DNA of 64,000 nucleotides from Pseudoalteromonas prydzensis (lineage in GTDB: Bacteria > Pseudomonadota > Gammaproteobacteria > Enterobacterales > Alteromonadaceae), in NCBI RefSeq assembly GCF_011050055.1, contig NZ_DRGM01000133.1, positions 1 to 64,000 on the forward strand, in the 5' to 3' direction. Numbering within the stretch: position 1 is the first letter of the stretch; every line of letters starts with the position of its first letter. Made by a program: the position numbers and the translations under genes. The notes under the pieces were generated by a model. That model made no database searches, was not told the origin of the DNA, and saw nothing but the letters and a program-made list of their open reading frames with translations. This document shows positions 5,501 to 45,723 of the stretch, piece after piece.

Positions 5501-6031
5501 TACATCAACTTTACGGGTACCAAAAAATATTGCGAACATCGCCATGATCAAAGTAGCAGAGAGCGCCACCATTGAACCGGATATTTTGTTGTCACTTTGC
5601 AGTAGTAAAAAGCTGTTACTTAGTGCTTTTAACTGCAAGGCGATATACGGAATGGTTGCTAGTAGCGCAATCATAGTCACCATAATTGCAGTGGTTTGGC
5701 GCTTACCGTAGCGGGCGGAAATAAAGTCGGCGATGGTGGTGATATTTTGTTTTTTACTGACTAGCACTAGTTTACGTAAAAATCCTTGTCCGAAAAAAAA
5801 CAACAATGCAGGGCCAAGTAAAATCGGTAAGTAACTCCAACTGCTGGTGGCAGCCGTGCCCACTGAGCCGTAGTAAGTCCACGAGGTGCAATAAATACCC
5901 AACGAGAAAGAGTAAACAAAAGGGTGGTGGCTAATTCGTTTGGCCAGTGGTGTGGTTTTATCGCCCCAGTTTGCTAGCCAAAACAAGATGCCAATGTACG
6001 CCAAAGCGACAAAAATCAGTGCAGCAGTCAT
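2591..6031 (-). CDS. crbS: CrbS/MxtR-like symporter-sensor hybrid histidine kinase
   Basis: Inner-membrane hybrid sensor kinase of 1146 residues from the ATG; an in-frame TTG lies four codons upstream. Order: SLC5 sodium:solute symporter domain (about residues 1-490, roughly 13 helices), STAC-like linker (490-570), PAS (615-735), coiled coil (740-795), HisKA with phospho-His at about H802 in FLALASHDILQPL, HATPase with N box NLVSNAVKY and G box DTGPGIS (910-1000), and a C-terminal receiver with Asp about D1080 in ILMDYQLG. In Vibrio CrbS and Pseudomonas MxtR this architecture controls acetate and short-chain acid use through a LuxR-type regulator, which is not in the window. The divergent neighbours are a DUF4212/ActP-like symporter pair, as in Vibrio. 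The acetate role is inferred from architecture and synteny. Confidence 0.85.
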   Translation of the reverse strand: MTAALIFVALAYIGILFWLANWGDKTTPLAKRISHHPFVYSFSLGIYCTSWTYYGSVGTAATSSWSYLPILLGPALLFFFGQGFLRKLVLVSKKQNITTIADFISARYGKRQTTAIMVTMIALLATIPYIALQLKALSNSFLLLQSDNKISGSMVALSATLIMAMFAIFFGTRKVDVTEYRSGLMLAVAFESMIKLLALVAVAGLALLTLYNLPSTSELQIKESLWQHWDNFNFLSFNFIGQSLMAAAAIICLPRQFHVTVVDNQDKRHLFTARWAFPLYLLLTAAMILPIATAAIHPEIGNGFSPDSFVLALPLMHDNVLLTTFVFIGGISAATAMIVVATLTLSTMISNDVVLPLMLRRKFKRNLITSSYKPQILLVRRFTIAGILILSYFYQQWFGHGKALASMGLVAFSLVTQLLPAIVGGLYWRKGHAYGVYAGLLAGLICWILFLMLPILDAGNTLTTELQQTLITRGTLIALFANIGCYISFSLGADERLIDKIQAAAFVNPKEQAVLARRLNKNVKATVYDFKVLLQTFLGIQRSQQVLAHFSLTHQLDDNNTHPDPEFIAYCERALTGVLGASSAQALIHTVASGKRMAFEEVVNFFDETTQALQFNQNLLYTSLENLSHGISVVDKELNLVAWNKRYAEMFNYPTGFLEVGQPIEDIIRYNAERGECGPGEIERHVEKRVQHLKNGSSHHFIRHRRNGLVYEMIGNPLPDGGFVTSFSDITTHIATQNALEEVNMDLENRIEARTQEIRTINKDLEAQIESRVQTEQALTLAKREAEQANDSKTRFLALASHDILQPLNAARLYLAAIDEKSLADNNINNFEKLGASLDSTVHLMSALLEIAKLEQGAMTPTPRHFSIDDILAPLRNEYAILSTEKGLKLTVRSGQHIVHSDITYLRRIVQNLVSNAVKYTNTGKVLVACRKRKHHLRIEVWDTGPGISEVEQAKIFNDFYRIEASDNKGIGLGLSVVKRMVDLLSIRLDVRSTPQKGSCFSIEIPYGESQFVQQKLATNSLFEERSAMNIIAVDDDPENLNAMASLLQKWQANYQLFDQVDSVLAYAHAHSAPDVILMDYQLGHAHDGISLIKALREIWQAKVPAILITAVRDVELKQATKAEDIHYLSKPIKPGKLKALLNHST

Positions 6032-6291
6032 GTATATAGTCAATTTTTATTTTGTTATTGCACACCATACCAGAAGTTTTCGCTGATTTGAGCTGTCAAT
6101 TTTTGTGTAGAACATACAAATAAATCTATCTATTTGATATTTAATATTAATTATGTGTTTTTAAGATCTATTAGACTAATGTCGCAGATCTGCAACATAG
6201 CCTAGATGAATAGTTAAAATCACCCAGCGGAAATAGTTAACGTGATGATAATTAATGTTTTTTACTTAAATTTAACAAGTGGGCATTTGCA

Positions 6292-6308
6292 GTTTACGTA
6301 AACGTTAA
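6292..6308. promoter_or_regulatory. candidate operator in the crbS / symporter divergent region
   Basis: The roughly 390-bp gap between crbS and the DUF4212 gene (6032-6421) carries no reading frame. It must hold both divergent promoters. Its most striking element is the perfect 12-bp palindrome GTTTACGTAAAC (6292-6303), extended to TTTACGTAAACGTTAA. This resembles the TTTACGTAAACGTAAA-like sites reported for MerR-family regulators such as LiuR in Alteromonadales. The regulator assignment is tentative. Confidence 0.3.
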
Positions 6309-6421
6309 CTTGTTGTTACGACTATGGTCTCAATTCAATATTAAGGCAGCGTTGCTAAATTGGTTAGTGCAGATAATAAAAACCACATCACTTTTTACAG
6401 ATGTTAAAGAGGAAATAAAAA

Positions 6422-6685
6422 ATGGCTTTTAAAGATGAAGAACAAGCAAAAGCTTATTGGGCGGAAAACATTTCACTGCTGTTTAAATTATTAGCAGTTT
6501 GGTTTGTCGTGTCGTTTGGCTTTGGCATATTACTGGTTGATGTACTTAATGAAGTGCGTTTCTTTGGGTTTAAACTTGGCTTCTGGTTCTCCCAGCAAGG
6601 CGCGATTTACACCTTTGTGGCTTTGATTTTTGTGTACGTTTTCAAAATGAATACGTTAGATAAAAAATACGGCGTAGACGAATAG
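6422..6685 (+). CDS. DUF4212 small subunit of sodium:solute symporter
   Basis: An 87-residue protein of the DUF4212 (sodium/substrate symporter small subunit) family. It has two membrane helices (about residues 15-38 and 50-72) and begins with the family-typical charged N-terminus ending in AYWAENI. An AGAGGA ribosome site precedes the ATG. The next gene, an ActP-like symporter, starts 10 bp after its stop, so the two are almost certainly co-translated. Family members are found paired with SLC5 carriers as a probable accessory subunit. The substrate is not shown by the sequence. Confidence 0.88.
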   Translation: MAFKDEEQAKAYWAENISLLFKLLAVWFVVSFGFGILLVDVLNEVRFFGFKLGFWFSQQGAIYTFVALIFVYVFKMNTLDKKYGVDE

Positions 6686-6695
6686 GAGCTAAGCA

Positions 6696-8420
6696 ATGGA
6701 TGTTCAAACACTCACGTTTATCATTGTCGGACTAAGCTTTGCGCTTTATATCGGCATTGCAATTTGGGCTCGAGCGGGCTCAACAAATGAATTTTATGTA
6801 GCAGGCGGCGGCGTTCCACCGCTTGCTAATGGTATGGCTACAGCTGCGGATTGGATGAGTGCTGCGTCATTTATCTCAATGGCAGGTATCATCTCTTTCG
6901 CCGGTTACGATGGCGGCGTGTACTTAATGGGTTGGACCGGTGGTTATGTATTACTTGCCATGTGTTTAGCACCTTATTTACGTAAGTTCGGCAAGTTTAC
7001 TGTGCCCGATTTTATCGGTGACCGCTACTACTCACGCACTGCGCGTTTAGTGGCAATTTTGTGTGCCATCTTTATCTGTTTTACCTATATTGCAGGGCAA
7101 ATGCGTGGTGTAGGCGTGGTATTCTCTCGCTTCTTAGAAGTTGAAATTGAAACCGGTGTTTACATTGGTATGGTTATCGTATTCTTTTATGCAGTATTAG
7201 GCGGCATGAAAGGCATTACCTATACCCAAGTGGCACAGTATTGTGTACTGGTATTTGCTTACCTTGTTCCTGCCATCTTTATCTCTATGATGATGACGGG
7301 TCACTTCTTCCCACAAACTGGCTTTGGCGCGACATTAATTGGCGGCGATGGTGTATATGTACTGGATAAACTTGATGGTTTAAGTGCTGAACTTGGCTTT
7401 GCGCAATACACTGAAGGCTCTAAGAGCATGATAGATGTGTTTGCTATCACAGGTGCATTAATGGTGGGTACTGCGGGTCTTCCACATGTAATCGTACGTT
7501 TTTTCACTGTACCGCGCGTTAAAGATACGCGTATCTCAGCGGCATGGACATTAGTGTTCATCGCTATTGTTTACACTACAGCGCCAGCGGTTGCCGCATT
7601 TGCCCGTGTTAACATGATTGATACCATAAACGGTAAAGATGGTAACGGTACTGAATACGCAGAAGCACCGACATGGGTGAAAAACTGGGAAAGAACGGGT
7701 TTAATCACCTTTAATGATAAAAATGGTGATGGCAAAATGTTTTACACCGCAGGTAAAATTGATGATCCAAACAGCGCTAACGAAGTTAACGTTGACCGCG
7801 ACATCATGGTACTTGCGAACCCAGAAATTGCTAACTTACCAGCATGGGTAGTAGCGCTAGTAGCAGCTGGTGGTATTGCTGCGGCATTATCGACAACCGC
7901 TGGCTTACTACTGGTTATTTCGACCTCCGTATCGCACGATTTACTCAAGCGAACCTTAAAACCAAACATTAGCGATAAACAAGAGTTACTCGCAGCGAGG
8001 TTGGCAGCCATGGTTGCGATTGTTATCTCCGCTTACTTTGGTATTAACCCGCCTGGATTTGTGGCGTCGGTGGTGGCATTTGCATTCGGCTTAGCTGCTG
8101 CAAGTTTCTTCCCGGCGATCATTATGGGTATTTTCTCGAAAACAATGAATAAAGAAGGTGCGGTGCTAGGCATGGTGACAGGTATTACCTTTACTGCTGC
8201 TTATATTATTTTCTTCAAGTTTATCAGCCCAGAGCTTAACAACCCTGAACATTGGTTGTTCGGTATTTCGCCGGAAGGTATTGGTTTAGTAGGTATGCTT
8301 ATTAACTTTGCAGTTGCTGCAATCGTGGTTAAGTTTACCGCTGATACACCGCTTGAAATTCAACAAATGGTTGAAAGCATTCGTAATCCTAAAGGTTCTA
8401 GTGAAGCACACGCTCACTAA
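6696..8420 (+). CDS. ActP-like sodium:solute symporter (SLC5 family)
   Basis: A 574-residue inner-membrane carrier of the SLC5/SSSF family with about 13 helices. It has the family hallmark GGxVPPLANGMATAADWMSAASFI near residues 40-65 (short motif AADWMSAASF). A soluble insertion around residues 310-370 carries an Asp-rich stretch (NDKNGDGKM), which could bind calcium. The partner DUF4212 gene lies directly upstream and the CrbS-like kinase is divergent, so acetate or another short-chain carboxylate is the likeliest substrate. The C-terminus is His-rich (SSEAHAH). A rho-independent terminator follows. The exact substrate is inferred. Confidence 0.88.
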   Translation: MDVQTLTFIIVGLSFALYIGIAIWARAGSTNEFYVAGGGVPPLANGMATAADWMSAASFISMAGIISFAGYDGGVYLMGWTGGYVLLAMCLAPYLRKFGKFTVPDFIGDRYYSRTARLVAILCAIFICFTYIAGQMRGVGVVFSRFLEVEIETGVYIGMVIVFFYAVLGGMKGITYTQVAQYCVLVFAYLVPAIFISMMMTGHFFPQTGFGATLIGGDGVYVLDKLDGLSAELGFAQYTEGSKSMIDVFAITGALMVGTAGLPHVIVRFFTVPRVKDTRISAAWTLVFIAIVYTTAPAVAAFARVNMIDTINGKDGNGTEYAEAPTWVKNWERTGLITFNDKNGDGKMFYTAGKIDDPNSANEVNVDRDIMVLANPEIANLPAWVVALVAAGGIAAALSTTAGLLLVISTSVSHDLLKRTLKPNISDKQELLAARLAAMVAIVISAYFGINPPGFVASVVAFAFGLAAASFFPAIIMGIFSKTMNKEGAVLGMVTGITFTAAYIIFFKFISPELNNPEHWLFGISPEGIGLVGMLINFAVAAIVVKFTADTPLEIQQMVESIRNPKGSSEAHAH

Positions 8421-8452
8421 CAACGCTGATACTCTATTATATTGATAGATCC

Positions 8453-8482
8453 AAAAGCCCGACTTAAGTCGGGCTTTTTATT
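8453..8482 (+). terminator. rho-independent terminator after the symporter
   Basis: The perfect hairpin AAGCCCGACTTAAGTCGGGCTT is followed by a T run, 32 bp past the symporter stop. It separates the symporter pair from the next gene, which then probably has its own promoter or relies on read-through. Confidence 0.9.
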
Positions 8483-8535
8483 TACAGCTGATAGCAGTAC
8501 AGTGAGTGTACGATTGTTTTATTGCGAGTAGCAAG

Positions 8536-10374
8536 ATGAACCATGAGCAACAGGAAGTCGCCCAGTTTGTACTAGCACAAATGCCATTTAGCGGCCTTGA
8601 TAGCAGCGCGACAGATTACTTTGTAAAACACCTTGATGTTATTTATCTGAACTGTGAAAACCAAACGCAATGGCTGCAATCAGAGTCCCCTAAACTGTTT
8701 TTAATTCGCTCTGGTTTGTATGACTTAGTGGATGCAAAAGGTGATGTGATCACCCATTTAGCACAAGGCGATTATTTTGGCTTCCCTTCATTGCTGACCG
8801 GCGAAGCAATTCAAAACCGTTTAGTCGTGCAAAAAGAGGGCATTGTTTATATGCTCAACCAAGAGGCGTTTGATTATTTGCGTCGTGAGTACAAACCGTT
8901 TGAACAGTATTTTGTGCGTGCCCATGCTAATCGGTTGTTGTCATCGCATTATAAAAGCCAAAATGACAGTTGGTCTGAGCGCAAAATATCAGAATTGATG
9001 TCACGTAAAGCGGTCACTTTGTCGCCCGATGCAAGTATTCGCCAAGCCGCTAAAAAAATGAAAGAGCACGGTGTATCATCAATTATGGTTACTGAGTATG
9101 AACGCTTAGTAGGGGTGGTGACTGATCGCGATTTACGCAACCGTGTACTAGCCGATGAAATCGACCCTCAGCAGGCAGTCCGTACGATTATGAGTGCGAA
9201 ACCGAAGTTTATTTTTGAAAATAATCGGGTGTTTTCGGCGCTGCATTTAATGCTCAAACATAACATTCACCATTTACCTGTGCTGGATGAACGCCATAAA
9301 GCACTTGGTATGATCACCAGTACCGATTTATTACGTCAACAAAAGAGCGATCCCGTACAACTTATTGGCCGCATTTATAAAGCCCATAGTGTGATTGAGC
9401 TAAAACGCTACGCGGCTGAAATACCTGACTTACTGCGCAGTTTTTCGCATAATATTGATGATATATCCTTGATTGGTAAATTACTCAGTGGCTTGACTGA
9501 TGCGCTTACGTCGCGGTTAATTTATTTATTTCAAGAGGATAACGGAGCTGCACCGACCAGTTTTAGTTTTATTTGTTTTGGCTCCCAAGCGCGCGAAGAG
9601 CAAACCTTACATTCCGATCAAGACAACGGTTTATTACTGCCTGATGATTTAACTGAACTGCATCAGGATTATTATCGGCGGATGGGGGAGTTTGTTTGTG
9701 AACAGCTGGTAGAGTGCGGTATTAGGCGTTGCCCAGGCAACATTATGGCCAGCAGTGAATTATGCAGAATGAGTATATCTGATTGGTGTGAAAAGTTTTT
9801 TACTTGGATAAAAAGTCCAACGCCACAGGCTATGCTGAACTGTAAAATATTTTTTGATTTACGCTTTATTGAAGGCTCAACGGCGCTTTACACTGCATTT
9901 TGTGAGCAACTAACCCGTATTTCTCGTGACGAATTATTTTATGCCGCCATGGCAACCGATATTAAGTCGAACTCCGTGCCGATTGGCTTATTTAATCAAT
10001 TTAAACTCGAAAAAGATGCCAAACAGCATAAATACATTGATTTGAAAAAACGTGGCGTAGTGATCATTAACGACATTGTTCGTTTATATGCGTTAAAAGC
10101 AGGGATACGCCGAGCGAACACCCAAGAGCGCTTAGATGCATTACTGAAACATTCTTTATTAAGTAATCACGACGTGTATAACTTGAAAGACTGTTGGCGA
10201 TTTTTAACGCAGTTGCGTTTGCGCACGCAAATAAACGAAGAAGGCTTGCCCAGCAACTGTATTAATCCAGATAAGTTAAGTTCGCTCGAACGTCATCAAT
10301 TAAAAGAAGCGTTTTATTTACTTAAGCTGGCACAACAAGCTGCGGCATTTAAATTTGCCAGAGGAAGTTTATAA
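8536..10374 (+). CDS. cNMP-binding / CBS / DUF294 nucleotidyltransferase-like protein
   Basis: Cytoplasmic protein of 612 residues from ATG 8536; a GTG lies 30 bp upstream. Order: cyclic-nucleotide-binding-like domain (about 20-130), two CBS domains (about 155-270, with GVVTDRDLRNRV and GMITSTDLLRQQ), DUF294 nucleotidyltransferase-like domain (about 300-440; FGSQAREEQTLHSDQDNG resembles the GlnD-type catalytic core), and DUF294 C-terminal helical domain (about 470-605). The family accompanies ActP-like symporters and CrbS-type kinases in Vibrio and Pseudomonas. A regulatory, adenylate-sensing role linked to acetate metabolism is inferred; no substrate is established. Confidence 0.85.
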   Translation: MNHEQQEVAQFVLAQMPFSGLDSSATDYFVKHLDVIYLNCENQTQWLQSESPKLFLIRSGLYDLVDAKGDVITHLAQGDYFGFPSLLTGEAIQNRLVVQKEGIVYMLNQEAFDYLRREYKPFEQYFVRAHANRLLSSHYKSQNDSWSERKISELMSRKAVTLSPDASIRQAAKKMKEHGVSSIMVTEYERLVGVVTDRDLRNRVLADEIDPQQAVRTIMSAKPKFIFENNRVFSALHLMLKHNIHHLPVLDERHKALGMITSTDLLRQQKSDPVQLIGRIYKAHSVIELKRYAAEIPDLLRSFSHNIDDISLIGKLLSGLTDALTSRLIYLFQEDNGAAPTSFSFICFGSQAREEQTLHSDQDNGLLLPDDLTELHQDYYRRMGEFVCEQLVECGIRRCPGNIMASSELCRMSISDWCEKFFTWIKSPTPQAMLNCKIFFDLRFIEGSTALYTAFCEQLTRISRDELFYAAMATDIKSNSVPIGLFNQFKLEKDAKQHKYIDLKKRGVVIINDIVRLYALKAGIRRANTQERLDALLKHSLLSNHDVYNLKDCWRFLTQLRLRTQINEEGLPSNCINPDKLSSLERHQLKEAFYLLKLAQQAAAFKFARGSL

Positions 10375-39374: not shown

Positions 39375-41006
39375 ATGAAGCTTAATCAACTCGCTATGCG
39401 TAGCAAATTCATACTCTTATCTGCTTTAATATGCATCATTTTTATTGTTGCTATGGCATTTATAAAAGTTGCAAATAACCAAACAGCGACAGGCTTCGAG
39501 CGCTTCTATCAACATAACTTTATGGTGACTAAACTCAGTGCCGACCTCAAGCAAGCGCAAGACGGCATATTATCCGGAGTCAGGGGGCTGCAAGTAGTTT
39601 ATTTATTAGGTTTACAAGAGCAAGCGCCAGAGATGCTCAAGAGTATTGATGAGAATGTTGCGCTTACTGCGCCGCTAATACAGCGTATTAGCCAAATATA
39701 CAAAGGCGAGGCTAATTTACTTACGGCCCTAAAAAATAACTCGCAGCGTTATGAGCAAGCCGCTATTGAGTTTAAACAGGCGATGGAAACAGCTGCCGAT
39801 AATAAAGCCGATTATGCTATTTATCGTGAATTTGTTGATTCACATAGTGCCTTAACGACTTTTTTTGAGCAGTTTGAACAAGCAAACATAGCGCAAGTTG
39901 CTAAAGCGCAAGCGACTGCGCAGCAATCCATCAATTTTGCAAATACAGTGTTTTACTTATCAATTTTAATAGCGCTTGGCTTGGCTTTATTATTTAGCCA
40001 TATGCTGTCGAAAAAAGTAGTAATGGGACTAACGGTTGTTAGCGAAAGTGCCCATGCATTACAACGCGGCGAATTAGATCAATACTCTCAAGTTGAAGGC
40101 GATGATGAAGTCGCTGACTTAAGCCGTACCTTAGACGCTACAATTAGCCACTTAAATACCACTCTTGCCACTATTTATAACTCTGTAGCACAGGTTAATA
40201 ATCATAGTAATGAGTTACTCAGCTCAAATACTCAAATTCAAACAGCGACATCAGAGGTGTCCGATCATACAACGCAAGCCGTAACTGCAATTGAGGAGTT
40301 ATCGGTCACGAGTAAGAGTATTGCGGTAAATACCGCTGAGTCGGCAACAGCCTCTGATAGCATGATGACACTTGCCAATAGTGGCTTAGATGCTTCTGAG
40401 CAAACAAAAGAAGCAGTAAGTCACTTATTAGGCACATTAAATGAAACGTCAGACGTGGTTGACCAACTGCAAAGTGAATCCAGCAAAATTGAAACTATTC
40501 TCGATGTGATCCGTAATATTTCCGAACAAACTAATTTATTAGCACTTAATGCCGCGATTGAGGCTGCTAGAGCGGGCGAACAAGGGCGTGGTTTTGCCGT
40601 GGTGGCTGATGAAGTGCGTACTTTGGCTCAACGTTCTCATAGTTCAGTAAACGAGATTGAGACAATGCTTGGGCAGCTACGCTCAGCAAGTCAAAATGCA
40701 GTGACTATGATGGCTGATAGCACCAGAGTTGCAGCGCAAGCGGAAGATAAAATGGATGAAAGTAATCGCTTATTAAAAGAGATTATGCAAATGATCAATC
40801 AAGTTAATGACCAAACCCAGCAAATAGCAACAGCCGCTGAAGAGCAGTCAGCCGTTGCCGCTGATATTAGTCAAAATATGCATACCATCCATACCTTGAC
40901 CGATACCACTGCTGATATTTCGCAGCAAACTGCAAATACCAGCAATAGTATGGCTGAACAAAGTCAGTTGGTATTAAAGCAAGTTGCATTTTTTAAATTA
41001 AAATAA
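39375..41006 (+). CDS. methyl-accepting chemotaxis protein
   Basis: Transmembrane chemoreceptor of 543 residues. One helix lies at about 10-30, a periplasmic four-helix-bundle sensor at 35-190, a second helix at 195-212 and HAMP at 215-268. The cytoplasmic coiled coil has the hairpin tip [37 protein letters not shown] (tip core near 385-410), where CheA and CheW bind. No C-terminal CheR pentapeptide is present. The ligand is unknown. It lies alone, divergent from the amidohydrolase; a functional link with that enzyme is possible but not shown. Confidence 0.92.
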
Positions 41007-41018
41007 TGTGCGATATAA

Positions 41019-41270
41019 TTATTTACTTGCGTACAGGCTAAACTCTGCCAGCGATAACCTGTTATCTTTATCGCTGTCATAGCTTTTAAAGCGCGACCAT
41101 AAAGCGGGATCTTTTGCTGACTCTGAGCGAGTAAGTAAGCCATCTTGATTACGGTCTAACTTTTTGAATTGCTCAGCGACGTTATCAGTTGTTGCAAAAC
41201 TGCCACAACTAACGGCAAGGAGTGAAATTAATCCCAATTGTGTGGTGTATTTCATAGGGGGGAAACTCAT
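41019..41270 (-). CDS. small exported EF-hand protein (copy 4)
   Basis: An 83-residue exported protein with a signal peptide (ending near CGSFA) and two EF-hand loops: DRNQDGLLTRSE and DSDKDNRLSLAE. The second has Asn instead of the usual Gly at loop position 6. Its first ATG overlaps the stop of copy 3 (TAATG), indicating translational coupling; an internal ATG five codons later is an alternative start. It is last in a four-gene EF-hand cluster. Calcium binding in the periplasm is inferred; partners are unknown. Confidence 0.82.
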   Translation of the reverse strand: MSFPPMKYTTQLGLISLLAVSCGSFATTDNVAEQFKKLDRNQDGLLTRSESAKDPALWSRFKSYDSDKDNRLSLAEFSLYASK

Positions 41271-41506
41271 TAATGCAGGTTAATAGTTAAAAAATTCTTA
41301 AACTCGACGAGTGAAACTCTATTATCTTGGTCAGTGTCCCAGCGCTGAAACTGTTTTAGTAGCTGCGGTTGAGCGTCCAACTCATTTTTGGTTAAGTAGC
41401 CATCTTTATTACTGTCTAAATGGTCAAACCGTTGTTTTACATCCAGCGCTATCGCACTAAAGCTAGTGGCGAGTAGCACAGCTAATATGACTAATCTGTT
41501 TTTCAT
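41270..41506 (-). CDS. small exported EF-hand protein (copy 3)
   Basis: A 78-residue protein with a signal peptide (MKNRLVILAVLLATSFSAIA) and two EF-hand loops: canonical DSNKDGYLTKNE and variant DTDQDNRVSLVE, with Asn at loop position 6 as in copy 4. The spacing between the loops is the same as in the other copies. 58 bp after copy 2 and overlapping copy 4 by one base. Likely a periplasmic calcium-binding protein of the calsymin type; no enzymatic domain. Confidence 0.84.
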   Translation of the reverse strand: MKNRLVILAVLLATSFSAIALDVKQRFDHLDSNKDGYLTKNELDAQPQLLKQFQRWDTDQDNRVSLVEFKNFLTINLH

Positions 41507-41564
41507 TGTTAAGGTTCTTTTAGTTAGCCTGAACTTTACTTACTTAGTAAAAAGATAAAGTCGT

Positions 41565-41792
41565 TTAAATCTTAAAATTTGCAAACTCTTGCGCCGATAA
41601 TAACTCATCGTTGTTATCATCAAGATCCGTAAATTGCTTCAGCAAGGCGTCGTTTTGCTTTGCTTCAAGCAATGATATTTGCCCGTCTGCGTTGCTATCT
41701 AATTGTGCAAATTTAACGTTTGTTTGCGATGCTAAAACTGCGGCGCTAATGATTAAAAACATCAATGAAAAGGCGGCAATAAGTTGTCTCAT
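41565..41792 (-). CDS. small exported EF-hand protein (copy 2)
   Basis: A 75-residue protein with a signal peptide (ending near AAVLAS) and loops DSNADGQISLLE and DDNNDELLSAQE. The second loop has Glu at position 6, the most degenerate of the cluster, so one site may bind calcium weakly. AAGGAAA precedes the ATG. It starts 22 bp after the copy 1 stop and is probably in one operon with it. Confidence 0.83.
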   Translation of the reverse strand: MRQLIAAFSLMFLIISAAVLASQTNVKFAQLDSNADGQISLLEAKQNDALLKQFTDLDDNNDELLSAQEFANFKI

Positions 41793-41814
41793 AGCTGTAT
41801 TTCCTTTGGGGAAG

Positions 41815-42042
41815 TTATAGTAAAAACTGCTTGAATTCAGTTAGGGATATTTGACCATTTTGGTCTTTATCAATTTGCTCAAAACTTTCGTGCAGCACTG
41901 CATCTTCAGAAGCTTCGGCTTCACTTAATGTGCCATTGCTGTCTTTATCAAGCTCAGCGAAGGTAGCCTCAACATCGATAGCAAGGCTATTAAAACTAAA
42001 CAGTGCACTGCAGCATAAACACAGTGGGACTAATACTTTCAT
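41815..42042 (-). CDS. small exported EF-hand protein (copy 1)
   Basis: A 75-residue protein with a Cys-rich signal peptide (MKVLVPLCLCCSALFSFNSLA) and two canonical EF-hand loops, DKDSNGTLSEAE and DKDQNGQISLTE. It is first of the four-gene cluster and the only copy with both loops canonical. AAGGTAACC lies before the ATG. The four copies are clearly paralogous but well diverged, so the duplications are not recent. Confidence 0.84.
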   Translation of the reverse strand: MKVLVPLCLCCSALFSFNSLAIDVEATFAELDKDSNGTLSEAEASEDAVLHESFEQIDKDQNGQISLTEFKQFLL

Positions 42043-42360
42043 ATGGTTACCTTAAAAACAGTTGTTGCTTCAGATATTACAAGAATAATGCCAATAAAAT
42101 TAGTCTTTAAATATCAGTACTTTAGTTGTTTTTAGTGATGATGAGTGGGAAATAATGACTCAGGGCTGTGTCTTTTTTGCAACAGATTTTCATGGTAATT
42201 AATAAAGTTATTTAAAAACAAACGATTAAGTTGTTTCAATTTAGCGTCAGCCGCTTTATGTGGCGCTTTAGAGTTCGCCTTATTCATTATCGTTATTGAT
42301 TCAGCTAGTGTATAAGTAACACCTTTCATAATTAGACATTTAAACTAAGGAGTAGCTATA
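42043..42360. other. divergent region between EF-hand cluster and glrK
   Basis: The gap should contain divergent promoters. A 65-codon minus-strand frame (42132-42329, or 51 codons from an inner ATG, ending in PTHHH) is present, but it has no good ribosome site and unremarkable composition, so I do not call it a gene. I looked for a sigma-54 promoter ahead of glrK, as in enterobacteria, and found no GG-N10-GC match. Confidence 0.4.
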
Positions 42361-43827
42361 GTGGCCCCACTCGCTAAAAAGTACAGCGCTTTACTTAGTT
42401 GGCGACCAAATTTAATAGGCCAGTTTTTATTTAGTACCTTGTTATCTTTGCTGCCATTATCACTGGTGGTGATTGTGTTTTTAAATGCTTTGAATAAACA
42501 GCTTGCCGTTACCCAGCAAATCGTCAGTGATAACTATCAAATAACCAAATCATTTAATAATCTTAAACAAGACCTTAATAGTTTAGAGCGAGCGACTCGG
42601 CAAAATTGGGTACTAAAAAGTGAATCACTTGACGAATTGATTGTTGATAAGTGGCAATCATCGTTACAGAGTATTGATGAACTCACTTTTATTAGCCCCG
42701 CCGGGGATTATATTAGTCAGTGGCAGCAACTTGCCAAAGAATTGCAGTTAGCGCATTCAAAGCTGGTCGGCGAAGGGCTACAGGATGCGCAATTATTTAT
42801 TCCGGTGAGCGAATTAATTGCTCGTCAAACGTTATGGTTAAGAGATCAAAATGAACTGCAAATAACTAAAAATCAGCAACAGTTAAAAGCCTTACAAGAT
42901 TCTTTTATAAATTGGTTAGTGGCGCTTATCCCATTAACATTATTGGTTGGCGGTGGTTTTTTGTGGCGTATTAGCGGCCGATTAAAAGGCTTAACCTCGG
43001 TTATTGATAAACTTGGGCAAGGTCATTGGCAGCAAAAAATATCAGTACAGGGCTCTGCCGAACTGGTTGAGCTGGGCAATAAATTACAATGGGTGCAGGA
43101 GCAATTACATCAATTAGAACAACAAAAAGATACCTTCTTACGCCATGTGACCCATGAACTGAAAACCCCATTAGCATCAATGGTAGAAGGCACCGATTTA
43201 TTAACCGATGAAATCGTAGGGCCTATTAATAAAGAACAGCAAGCTGTACTGGAGCTAATCACGCAAAGTATGGTGCGCCTGCGGGCAATGATAGACAGTT
43301 TACTAAGCTACAATGCAATTCGCAGTAGTAAAGAGGACTTAAGTGAGTTGGTTTTTTCGCAATTAATAACCAAGATCAACAGTCATTTTGAACACCGTTT
43401 AGTCGCGCGTAAGCAAAGTTTATGTTGGCATTGTGATGTACCCGAGCAGCCGCTAGAAATTGCTGCGGAATTAGTTGAAATGATTTTAATACAGTTAATT
43501 TCTAATGGCTTGAAATTCTCATCGCAAGGGCAGGCGGTTGATATCAATTTATCATTAGCGGGACATACTTTAAAAATGATCGTCAGTGATCAAGGTACAG
43601 GTATTCAAGAGCAAGAAAAATCACATATTTTTAGTGCTTTTTATCAAGGTAAAAATGCCAAAGATGTGATCGCTCAAGGTAGCGGCTTAGGACTGACAAT
43701 TGTCAAGGAGTCTGTTGAGCAATTAATGGGGACTTTGCAGCTAGAGCAGAATGAGCCACAAGGTTGTCGTTTTGTTATTCAAATACCAACCATCATTCCA
43801 ACCAATAAAAACCAAGGAGTTAATTAG
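42361..43827 (+). CDS. glrK: sensor histidine kinase GlrK/QseE
   Basis: Inner-membrane sensor kinase of 488 residues starting with GTG after AAGGAG. Helix at about 18-42, periplasmic helical sensor (45-180), second helix (185-203), HAMP (203-255), HisKA with phospho-His about H265 in RHVTHELKTP, and HATPase with N-box ISNGLKF, SDQGTGI and GSGLGLTIV. It is followed by a lipoprotein and a GlrR-type sigma-54 activator in the order glrK-qseG-glrR of Enterobacteriaceae. There the system answers envelope stress and controls the GlmY small RNA. The assignment rests on the neighbours and on GlrR similarity. Confidence 0.88.
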   Translation: MAPLAKKYSALLSWRPNLIGQFLFSTLLSLLPLSLVVIVFLNALNKQLAVTQQIVSDNYQITKSFNNLKQDLNSLERATRQNWVLKSESLDELIVDKWQSSLQSIDELTFISPAGDYISQWQQLAKELQLAHSKLVGEGLQDAQLFIPVSELIARQTLWLRDQNELQITKNQQQLKALQDSFINWLVALIPLTLLVGGGFLWRISGRLKGLTSVIDKLGQGHWQQKISVQGSAELVELGNKLQWVQEQLHQLEQQKDTFLRHVTHELKTPLASMVEGTDLLTDEIVGPINKEQQAVLELITQSMVRLRAMIDSLLSYNAIRSSKEDLSELVFSQLITKINSHFEHRLVARKQSLCWHCDVPEQPLEIAAELVEMILIQLISNGLKFSSQGQAVDINLSLAGHTLKMIVSDQGTGIQEQEKSHIFSAFYQGKNAKDVIAQGSGLGLTIVKESVEQLMGTLQLEQNEPQGCRFVIQIPTIIPTNKNQGVN

Positions 43828-43828
43828 C

Positions 43829-44371
43829 ATGGGCGTGCGTTTAAATGCCATTTTTGTGGTGTGTATCACAACTTTAGGGCTCGCAGGGTGTGAGTTAACT
43901 GAGCAACCAGTAAAAGAGAATAATACCGAAGCAGAGCAGGTGATTAAAGAGATTGAGCCACACGGTGATGGTTTACCAAACCCAAAACCTCGGCCAAAAA
44001 CAGATCCTATGTATCCACCGGCAGAAATCGTCATTGGTTGGCATGCGAAGGCCTGTGGTGGCTTTCAAGTGGCGGTGAGTAAAATCGCTTATATTGGTAC
44101 TAAAGAGATCCAGAATTATTTTGATTTTAGTTGTAAAAATAATGTATTAGCGCCAGAAAAAGTATTAGAGCAGTTACTAAAACTTGATCAGGCGTATTAT
44201 TGGCCTGATGATATAAAGCAGTATTTATGGCTGCAAAAGCAACAAATAAATCAGCAAATAAACGCTAACAAACAGCAGCAGGCACTGAATAATAAAATGC
44301 AAGAGACATTGTCATCGCTGGCAACTATCGAGCAGCAGTTATTATTACGCGAAGAAACCAAGGAGCAGTAA
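43829..44371 (+). CDS. qseG: QseG-like outer-membrane lipoprotein
   Basis: A 180-residue lipoprotein from ATG 43829 (AAGGAG upstream, one base past the glrK stop). Lipobox LAGC with lipid Cys C21. A Pro-rich stretch (GDGLPNPKPRPKTDPMYPP) follows, then a small folded part and a Gln/Asn-rich C-terminal helix predicted as a coiled coil (about 135-180). Sequence likeness to enterobacterial QseG is low, but position and type match. QseG there interacts with the kinase sensor domain. The start of glrR follows after 2 bp, so all three are coupled. Confidence 0.75.
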   Translation: MGVRLNAIFVVCITTLGLAGCELTEQPVKENNTEAEQVIKEIEPHGDGLPNPKPRPKTDPMYPPAEIVIGWHAKACGGFQVAVSKIAYIGTKEIQNYFDFSCKNNVLAPEKVLEQLLKLDQAYYWPDDIKQYLWLQKQQINQQINANKQQQALNNKMQETLSSLATIEQQLLLREETKEQ

Positions 44372-44373
44372 TC

Positions 44374-45723
44374 ATGGCAATAGAGCAAAACCAAGGCGCA
44401 CGAATTTTACTGGTTGATGACGATGCAAGTTTATTAAAGCTGCTGGCTATTCGTATAGAATCTAAAGGCTATCAGGTTACTACCTGCGAAAGTGGCATCG
44501 CTGCTCTACAGCTCTTAAAAAACCATGTGTATGATGCCGTGGTTACCGACTTGCGGATGGATGAAATGGATGGCATGGCATTACATCGTCAGCTGCAAAA
44601 ACGTTACCCGGCATTGCCGGTGATCATGATGACTGCTCATGGCTCGATCCCTGATGCGGTTGAGGCAACTAAGCAGGGAATTTTCGCTTTTATTACTAAA
44701 CCGGTAGATAAAGATGAATTATTCGATAGTTTAGCGAAAGCAATTGAGATTCACGGCTTGAGCGCTGATGAAAAGTCATCAAGCAGTAATATAGTGACCC
44801 GCAGTGGTGCTATGTTGCACTTGCTTGAACAAGTTAAGTTACTGGGACCTACGCACGTCAATGTGTTGATTTCAGGCGCCAGTGGTACGGGCAAGGAGTT
44901 ATTAGCGAATGCGATTCATCAACACAGTCATGTTAGTGAAGGCCCATTTGTGGCAATTAACTGTGGTGCAGTGCCTGGGGAATTGCTTGAATCTGAATTA
45001 TTCGGCCATAAAAAAGGCGCGTTCACAGGTGCAATTAAAGACCATCAAGGGTTATTTCAACAAGCGCAAGGCGGCACCCTATTTTTAGATGAAATTGGTG
45101 ATATGCCGCTTAATTTACAAGTTAAATTACTGCGTGTATTGCAAGAAAAAACCATCCGTCCGGTGGGCTTTCAAGAAGAAATTCCTATCGATGTGCGGAT
45201 TGTCTCAGCAACCCATAAAAATTTACCGGATGCGATTGCTAATCAACAATTTCGCGAAGATCTATATTACCGTTTAAATGTTGTTAACCTTAAATTACCG
45301 CCATTGTGCGAGCGCAGAGAAGATGTGAGTTTATTAGCGCAGTATTTTAGCGCCACCATAGCTAAACGTATGGAGCAAAAAGAAAAGCGCTTTGCCAACG
45401 ATGCAATGCACGCATTAGTACGTCATGATTGGCCTGGTAATATTCGCCAATTACAAAACGTTGTTGAACAGGTTGTCGCACTGACCCCAGGTGAAGTAAT
45501 ATCGGTACAGTTGGTGGAGAGTGCGCTTAATAGTAATGCCAGTAATGTTGAGCCGCTTTCACTAAACGATGCTAAAAAAGAGTTTGAGCGCGATTATGTT
45601 ATTAACACCCTAAAAATGGCCGGTGGTAATGTGGCCGAAGGGGCAAAACTGGCGAAACGTAACCGTTCAGATTTTTATAAGTTGATCAAAAAACACAACA
45701 TAGACGTGGATACCATTTGTTAG
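44374..45723 (+). CDS. glrR: sigma-54-dependent response regulator GlrR/QseF
   Basis: NtrC-family activator of 449 residues. The receiver has its phospho-acceptor at about D59 in VVTDLRMDEMDGM, a stretch identical to E. coli GlrR. The AAA+ domain has Walker A GASGTGKE (about 165), the sigma-54 contact loop GAFTGA, Walker B TLFLDEIGD and a NIRQL-type R-finger region. The C-terminal Fis-type helix-turn-helix includes NVAEGAKLAKRNRSDFYKLIKKH. It activates sigma-54 promoters after phosphorylation by GlrK. Targets here are unknown; glmY/glmZ are not in the window. Confidence 0.95.
   Translation: MAIEQNQGARILLVDDDASLLKLLAIRIESKGYQVTTCESGIAALQLLKNHVYDAVVTDLRMDEMDGMALHRQLQKRYPALPVIMMTAHGSIPDAVEATKQGIFAFITKPVDKDELFDSLAKAIEIHGLSADEKSSSSNIVTRSGAMLHLLEQVKLLGPTHVNVLISGASGTGKELLANAIHQHSHVSEGPFVAINCGAVPGELLESELFGHKKGAFTGAIKDHQGLFQQAQGGTLFLDEIGDMPLNLQVKLLRVLQEKTIRPVGFQEEIPIDVRIVSATHKNLPDAIANQQFREDLYYRLNVVNLKLPPLCERREDVSLLAQYFSATIAKRMEQKEKRFANDAMHALVRHDWPGNIRQLQNVVEQVVALTPGEVISVQLVESALNSNASNVEPLSLNDAKKEFERDYVINTLKMAGGNVAEGAKLAKRNRSDFYKLIKKHNIDVDTIC

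Follow-up and report, generated by a model that had tools for sequence, protein, structure and literature searches.

In the QseE/QseG/QseF system of the Enterobacteriaceae (GlrK/YfhG/GlrR), the genes follow the order kinase, lipoprotein and sigma-54 activator. Small periplasmic products placed under an envelope two-component system are also known from the CpxP-like feedback proteins. The GlmY RNA is an established target of QseF in E. coli, with IHF helping (PMC6075780), and the published QseF consensus reads TGTCN10GACA (PMC8745638). The QseG–QseE complex itself is represented by the structure 9M08 (PMC12691602). As for exported or Ca2+-related EF-hand proteins, EfhP (PA4107) of Pseudomonas aeruginosa has two EF-hand motifs and is tied to the Ca2+ response (PMC9132961), and in Caulobacter vibrioides the CaBP–SigV pair couples a periplasmic EF-hand protein to an alternative sigma factor in envelope and stress physiology (PMC13171946). 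Lanmodulin, also small and exported, has EF-hands joined by unusually short linkers.

Little is known about the physiological signal of QseEGF-type systems or about their outputs outside the enterobacteria, and few circuits have been defined in bacterial calcium signalling. The locus described here, from a Pseudoalteromonas genome, brings the two subjects together, with a QseEGF-type module lying beside an array of mini EF-hand genes.

The mini EF-hand array and the adjacent module

The window, i.e. the whole stretch of 64,000 nucleotides that was analysed, comes from an assembly of 5.1 Mb that is 93.8% complete and 8.6% contaminated. The named relatives carrying the same array all belong to Pseudoalteromonas; the nearest is P. 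prydzensis, whose copy A shares 99% identity with that of the window along the aligned part. On the minus strand, four ORFs lie head to tail between 41019 and 42042: copy A (41815–42042, 75 aa), copy B (41565–41792, 75 aa), copy C (41270–41506, 78 aa) and copy D, which ends at 41019. The sequence-only reading had described four head-to-tail genes with gaps of 22 and 58 bp, which the ORF coordinates confirm. The TAATG junction that it placed between copies C and D is probably unreal. It implies a copy D of 83 aa starting at 41270, whereas the counterparts in two related loci (L067 and L068) are 78 aa long and align codon for codon from the ATG at 41255. For this reason the start of copy D is most likely 41255 (41019–41255, 78 aa), and the C–D junction is more likely a 14-bp gap.

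All four genes are under purifying selection, with dN/dS values of 0.041–0.128 in eight comparisons with L067 and L068, dS being saturated (>1) in three of them. The A-B-C-D order is retained in 43 of 45 related arrays, a set made of the 47 loci with a GlrR identity of at least 86%, from which G005 and G026 were removed because no array lies next to their kinase. Relatives of the minis, as we call these proteins, were found in 88 of 108 Pseudoalteromonas genomes. Judged by selection, order and distribution taken together, the four-gene set is not a product of chance, and the conserved cluster on which the sequence-only reading had staked its proposal does exist in relatives. No terminator-like site was found on the minus strand between 40900 and 42400, which fits a single A–D transcript. 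At the other end of the array, a methyl-accepting chemotaxis protein gene (39375–41006, plus strand) runs convergently, its end lying 12 bp away from that of copy D; it adjoins the array in L067 too, but did not turn up there in most of the clade's other loci.

Each copy begins with a hydrophobic stretch, after which come two 12-residue loops. The loop of an EF-hand is characterised by Asp at position 1, Glu at position 12, acidic or amide residues at positions 3 and 5, and flanking helices; all four copies match Pfam EF-hand models. Copies A, C and D exceed the curated threshold of one or more of these models, and copy B falls just short (best 23.5 versus 25.0 bits, EF-hand_6). The translations and the Pfam EF-hand models agree with the initial description of a signal peptide plus one EF-hand pair per copy. 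The Pfam EF-hand pair model aligns to copies A–C only with about 12 model positions skipped. In all 335 distinct minis collected, the loops are 26 residues apart and the linker is 14 residues long.

The graded loops noted at the outset were also found as described: copy A is canonical in both loops, with Gly at position 6, and position 6 of loop 2 is Glu in copy B and Asn in copies C and D. In the clade of the window, copy A keeps Gly there in 45/45 cases, and a residue other than Gly is found in B (44/44), in C (45/45) and less regularly in D (27/44). Across the 335 distinct minis, Gly occupies position 6 in 328 first loops and 224 second loops. These alignments indicate that the loop-2 differences are copy-specific and conserved. 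Gly is common rather than absolute at this position of an EF-hand loop, which normally needs a left-handed turn; weaker second sites are therefore plausible in the copies that lack it.

Export is suggested by several features of the 285 distinct minis encoded next to a kinase. An Ala-ended, cleavage-like motif stands 4–12 residues before loop 1 in 280 of them, a hydrophobic run of at least 10 residues is present in 275, and none contains Cys between the point nine residues ahead of loop 1 and the C-terminus, a pattern that fits secreted soluble proteins. Structural models were obtained for copies A (pLDDT 81.5, core 92–94) and B (79.1, core about 90). Both loops are predicted in a helix-loop-helix context, with a short strand in each (38–40 and 64–66) as in a paired EF-hand unit, the output giving strand positions rather than their pairing. 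The fold of the copy A model is matched best by EF-hand pairs of calmodulin, troponin C and calcineurin B, at a weak level (best Foldseek E 0.002; Z <8). Copy A is strongly acidic, with a net charge of –11; copies C and D are close to neutrality.

The divergent module on the plus strand starts with a glrK/qseE-like membrane histidine kinase gene (42361–43827). A profile built from 11 such kinases has the QseE chain of the complex mentioned above (PDB 9m08_C) as its top solved structure, over the whole length (E 1.6e-68). Profile positions 13–463 match residues 5–470 with 234.6 bits, and CpxA follows with 129.3 bits; the similarity covers both the periplasmic and the kinase domains, as expected of a QseE/GlrK protein. 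The third gene (44374–45723) encodes a glrR/qseF-like sigma-54-dependent response regulator with a receiver domain, an AAA domain and a GAFTGA motif, the sigma-54 contact of such activators. Its best NCBIfam model is GlrR, at 597 bits, under the 763-bit cut-off. Between the two, in the qseG position, lies a gene for a lipoprotein with a lipobox-like Cys (43829–44371, 180 aa from the ATG at 43829). It resembles QseG in this position and in the Cys, but no Pfam match of weight was found in 8 members, and no QseG structure is present among the PDB matches up to E 10.

Array promoters and their genomic distribution

Upstream of copy A, on the minus strand, the window contains a set of motifs reminiscent of a QseF-controlled promoter. 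A –24/–12-like sigma-54 element, TTGGCATTATTCTTGTAATA (42075–42094), lies 52 bp before copy A and has no C at –12. It is preceded by an IHF-like site (42112–42124) matching 8/9 consensus positions, at a fixed offset shared with relatives, and by two degenerate QseF/GlrR-like boxes, each matching 10/12 positions: TGTTGCAAAAAAGACACA (42167–42184) and TGACGCTAAATTGAAACA (42232–42249), respectively 91 and 156 bp upstream of the –24 element. A 65-aa ORF overlapping both boxes (42132–42329, minus strand) is probably not a gene; among 40 loci it was matched only in L067 and L068. There is no Rfam match to GlmY in the window between 40900 and 46500, so that GlmY was discarded as an occupant of the array's place.

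The same plan recurs in relatives. TGGCAY-N5-TTG, used as an unweighted pattern, is found upstream of the first gene in 30 of 31 arrays, versus 0.09 expected from shuffles, the near-duplicates L056, L071, L073 and L084 having been left out of the 31. The last array (L081) has, by eye, the pattern farther upstream, before an extra small exported ORF. This ORF, around 6029–6640 of L081 (genome G011), sits between the promoter and a single copy-D-like mini. The palindrome TGTYGC-N6-GCRACA starts about 92 bp before the TGG and, in the arrays on the kinase side, again at about 157 bp (up to 167). Of 35 loci, 30 have a box that fits at 11 or all 12 of its 12 positions; in the window, as in L067 and L068, both boxes reach only 10/12, and in the scanned stretch of L081 and L082 no box matched at 9 positions or more. 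Significance of the boxes was judged from reversed-pattern controls and from the downstream genes. Between box and promoter, at a fixed offset, lies the IHF-like site; 60 of 76 promoters have one that agrees with the IHF consensus at 8 or 9 of its 9 positions, versus 4.8 expected from shuffles.

The base following the –12 TTG is T in 54, G in 40, A in 17 and C in none of 111 promoters. C is usual at this place in the sigma-54 consensus, and since it never occurs here, use of sigma-54 is to be regarded as likely rather than proved. The fixed spacing of the elements and the sigma-54-type activator favour sigma-54 as the probable driver of the arrays. A GlmY promoter in L379 does carry C at –12, unlike the array promoters, and the genome of the window contains ten canonical TGGCAC-N5-TTGCW sites versus four for the reversed pattern. 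A sigma-70 promoter was also considered and rejected, the six consensus sites in 40900–42400 (3.9 expected) including none at the conserved position.

A composite pattern (box, 72–76 bases, TGGCAY-N5-TTG) was then derived from the EF-hand loci. It has 114 matches in 85 of the 108 Pseudoalteromonas genomes, all of them among the 87 genomes that are positive for the kinase, and the reversed pattern has none anywhere. All 114 were examined; they amount to 111 distinct composite promoters, and each of these stands before mini EF-hand ORFs. The distance does not exceed 300 bp in 110 cases and is 496 bp in L233. The composite search did not require EF-hands, and this exclusive choice of target is therefore informative. 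Composite promoters also mark arrays far from the kinase, in unrelated surroundings. In a looser search (gap 62–90), 30 of 31 readable matches lead to minis, the exception having a gap of 84. For eight further arrays beside the kinase no promoter is given, either because the start codon chosen automatically falls inside or downstream of it or because the pattern has no match there; of these, L075 alone was corrected by hand.

A wider pattern (gap 70–86) was searched in 394 genomes of the order and matched in 11, ten of them outside Pseudoalteromonas. Two of these ten (G132 and G408) have it before minis beside the same kinase module, with the boxes of G132 likewise at –157 and –92. The eight others do not: in G345 the match directly precedes a GlmY RNA (RF00128, 117.7 bits), whose 5' end lies 13 nt downstream of the TTG; in four genomes of one genus the match stands before glutathione S-transferase-like and lipoprotein ORFs (labels by inspection), in two genomes of another genus before a 66-aa protein, and in one further genome no downstream ORF is listed. 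The promoter type thus fits QseF/GlrR, its near-exclusive use for minis being seen in Pseudoalteromonas. The two genera with the 66-aa protein and with the glutathione S-transferase-like and lipoprotein ORFs belong to the same family (L372–L377); their promoters combine box, IHF-like site and TGGCAY element, again without C at –12, and a wider GlrR-type regulon is possible there. Minis of further genera (L358, L359, L360, L361, L363 and L369) are preceded by a TGGCAY –24-like element and have TTGATT-like sites nearby. Neither a QseF-like box nor a QseE-like kinase was found in these stretches, and a different activator may drive them.

Linkage and co-occurrence of minis and kinase

Among the 108 Pseudoalteromonas genomes, 87 are positive for the kinase profile, with true matches at 402 bits or more and all others at 143 bits or less. 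The mini EF-hand profile is positive in 88, namely the same 87 plus G120, which lacks a QseE-like kinase and whose protein, on examination, is a different one, with four loops and 172 aa. The 20 other kinase-negative genomes contain neither. A protein of 172–173 aa, lipoprotein-like and with two EF-hand pairs, was seen in L058 (6022–6543, minus strand), L059 (6143–6664), L065 (6052–6573) and L370 (5347–5865, minus strand) as well as in kinase-less G120; it is separate from the mini arrays.

Within 1.5 kb of the kinase, a divergent mini is present in 84 of the 87 kinase-bearing genomes. The three exceptions (G005, G026 and G125) have no kinase-adjacent array and carry one elsewhere, behind a composite promoter. 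Arrays beside the kinase comprise 1 to 10 minis, four being the number in 57 of 87 genomes, and relatives also have remote arrays. The largest kinase-adjacent array, of ten minis, is that of L325 (G131), where the kinase is among the most divergent (37% identity to the nearer query). The linkage extends to lineages in which the kinase is 34–48% identical to the nearer query and the flanking genes are others, and also to two other genera. Across loci, identity falls to 34% for the kinase and to 52% for the regulator, and the genes beyond the module vary; the pairing has outlasted its surroundings, given that kinases and regulators diverged while the flanking genes changed. The co-occurrence may come from few gain or loss events, the count having been made over genomes rather than on a species tree.

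The genome of the window has more minis on another contig (C5, locus L014), four at 5790–6946 and two at 9216–9712, beside different genes. Several of these six are nearly identical, which looks like recent tandem duplication, i.e. a dosage effect; an ORF labelled by inspection as a TrkH-like transporter lies nearby in the 5790–9712 region. The module, the shared promoter, the other arrays and the genus-wide co-occurrence lead us to consider the mini arrays and the module, as far as comparative genomics can tell, as a regulon rather than a single operon. The sequence-only reading, confined to the four-gene operon, mentioned none of these four features.

Possible roles and comparison with known systems

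The best explanation, to which we give a probability of about 60%, is that a QseEGF-type envelope system induces the production of small Ca2+-binding proteins for the periplasm. Control of the array by the neighbouring activator is highly probable from the promoter and linkage patterns, and the chances that the minis have a Ca2+ buffering or reporting role are about even. The mini EF-hand arrays would be the main identifiable output of this QseEGF/GlrKR-type envelope sensor in Pseudoalteromonas. An envelope signal would activate the kinase, in a manner likened to that of the QseG lipoprotein on QseE in E. coli, and the kinase would phosphorylate the activator. We infer that the latter binds the two palindromes, located some 92 and 157 bp before the –24/–12 promoter, and that, on DNA bent by IHF, it drives in a sigma-54-dependent manner the divergent array and further arrays, in this genome those of contig C5. 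The products would be exported and cleaved to about 54–58 residues, each forming one compact EF-hand pair. Small Ca2+-binding proteins, with second sites of unequal strength, would fill the periplasm and buffer or report Ca2+ at the stressed envelope. Points against this explanation are the missing C at –12, the 10/12 boxes of the window, the failure to find boxes at 9 positions or more in L081 and L082, the lipoprotein with no QseG match, the EF-hand matches in kinase-less G120, a co-occurrence that may go back to few events, and the eight of ten composite matches in other genera that do not precede minis. In addition, seawater contains about 10 mM Ca2+, and strong Ca2+ sites would therefore always be full. 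Weak sites would be sensible if the periplasm sees the millimolar Ca2+ of seawater.

Other readings deserve attention. The neighbourhood could be old shared synteny, the adjoining system having no control over the arrays, as gene order can last without function within a closely related genus. This is hardly credible in view of the promoter plan, which also marks remote arrays in unrelated surroundings and is found with an array in another genus at the same box positions, –157 and –92, and in view of the flanking genes outside the module, which vary by lineage. The short linker, 14 residues in 335/335 minis, together with a weak NCBIfam LanM similarity, raised the question of lanthanide binders, the minis being half-size lanmodulins. 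Lanmodulin identity was ruled out by the number of loops (two, not four), by the linker length (14 residues versus 12–13 in LanM, PMC10232371) and by position 2, where Pro is found in none of 670 loops. Ser or Thr is present at position 9 in nearly all loops, and lanthanide binding is very improbable. No lanmodulin appears among the fold matches listed, which carries no weight as proof. The resemblance of the copy A model to calmodulin, troponin C and calcineurin B pairs, along with the net charge of this copy, could also point to Ca2+-loaded binders of peptides or unfolded proteins, acting as calmodulin-like sponges or chaperones under envelope stress, and E. coli QseEF controls envelope-homeostasis regulators (PMC6075780). 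However, such weak fold matches are expected from any EF-hand, and the near-neutral copies C and D do not have the acidity of copy A; we consider this role improbable.

A closer competitor makes the minis accessory ligands of the kinase. In their Ca2+-loaded or Ca2+-free form they would exert feedback by binding to the periplasmic domain of the kinase, over a range defined by the graded sites. CpxP feeds back on CpxA in this way. The strict adjacency of array and kinase speaks for it, as does the match of the kinase to QseE across the periplasmic domain, and an accessory periplasmic lipoprotein is known to drive QseE (PMC6075780, PMC12691602). It is nevertheless doubtful: in G005, G026 and G125 the kinase persists with no array next to it, copy number varies between arrays (1–10), and the near-identical remote copies look like dosage rather than the design of a ligand. 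A bolder version sees in the array proteins a set of interchangeable Ca2+ receptors of graded strength that serve the QseE-like kinase, the number of minis (1–10 beside the kinase) and their loop chemistry fixing the extracellular Ca2+ set point of each species; it is speculative and in our opinion unlikely. If true, the duplicated remote arrays would add gain to the receptor circuit, and a modular "cassette" Ca2+ sensor would feed a sigma-54 switch, EF-hand pairs holding the place of the enterobacterial GlmY.

Returning to the explanation of an envelope system with small Ca2+-binding proteins as its output, a single regulator, a single promoter plan and a single protein family go together across the genus. 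This agreement and the conserved paralogue-specific loop changes make two questions directly testable: what does a QseE-like kinase sense in marine bacteria, and do bacteria employ graded EF-hand sites outside the cytoplasm, at millimolar Ca2+?

With QseEGF, the locus shares the order of the three genes and, at a target promoter beside the operon, QseF-like boxes, an IHF-like site and a –24/–12 element. It differs by the adjacent target, which is here a divergent mini EF-hand array and there glmY, located upstream in the same direction; by a lipoprotein that is not recognisable as QseG; by boxes that are mostly TGTTGC-N6-GCAACA instead of TGTC-N10-GACA; and by a –12 element without C. CpxP, for its part, is not an EF-hand protein. 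Lanmodulin has four EF-hands, linkers of 12–13 residues and Pro at position 2 (PMC10232371); the minis have two, 14 residues and no Pro there. EfhP is the product of a single gene and has a Kd of 13.7 µM; a tandem array or QseEGF-type control is not described in the accessible sections of PMC9132961. CaBP is one protein of 133 aa with three EF-hands and is paired with an ECF sigma factor, with no two-component system and no array (PMC13171946). The sequence-only reading knew of no described system of this form, and the open PMC literature indeed yielded no description of a QseEGF-type system with a mini EF-hand array as output, EfhP and CaBP–SigV being the nearest ideas. The parts are of known kinds; what is apparently undescribed is the combination of a QseEGF-type system with mini EF-hand arrays as its dedicated output, which suggests a dedicated bacterial calcium circuit in marine Pseudoalteromonas.
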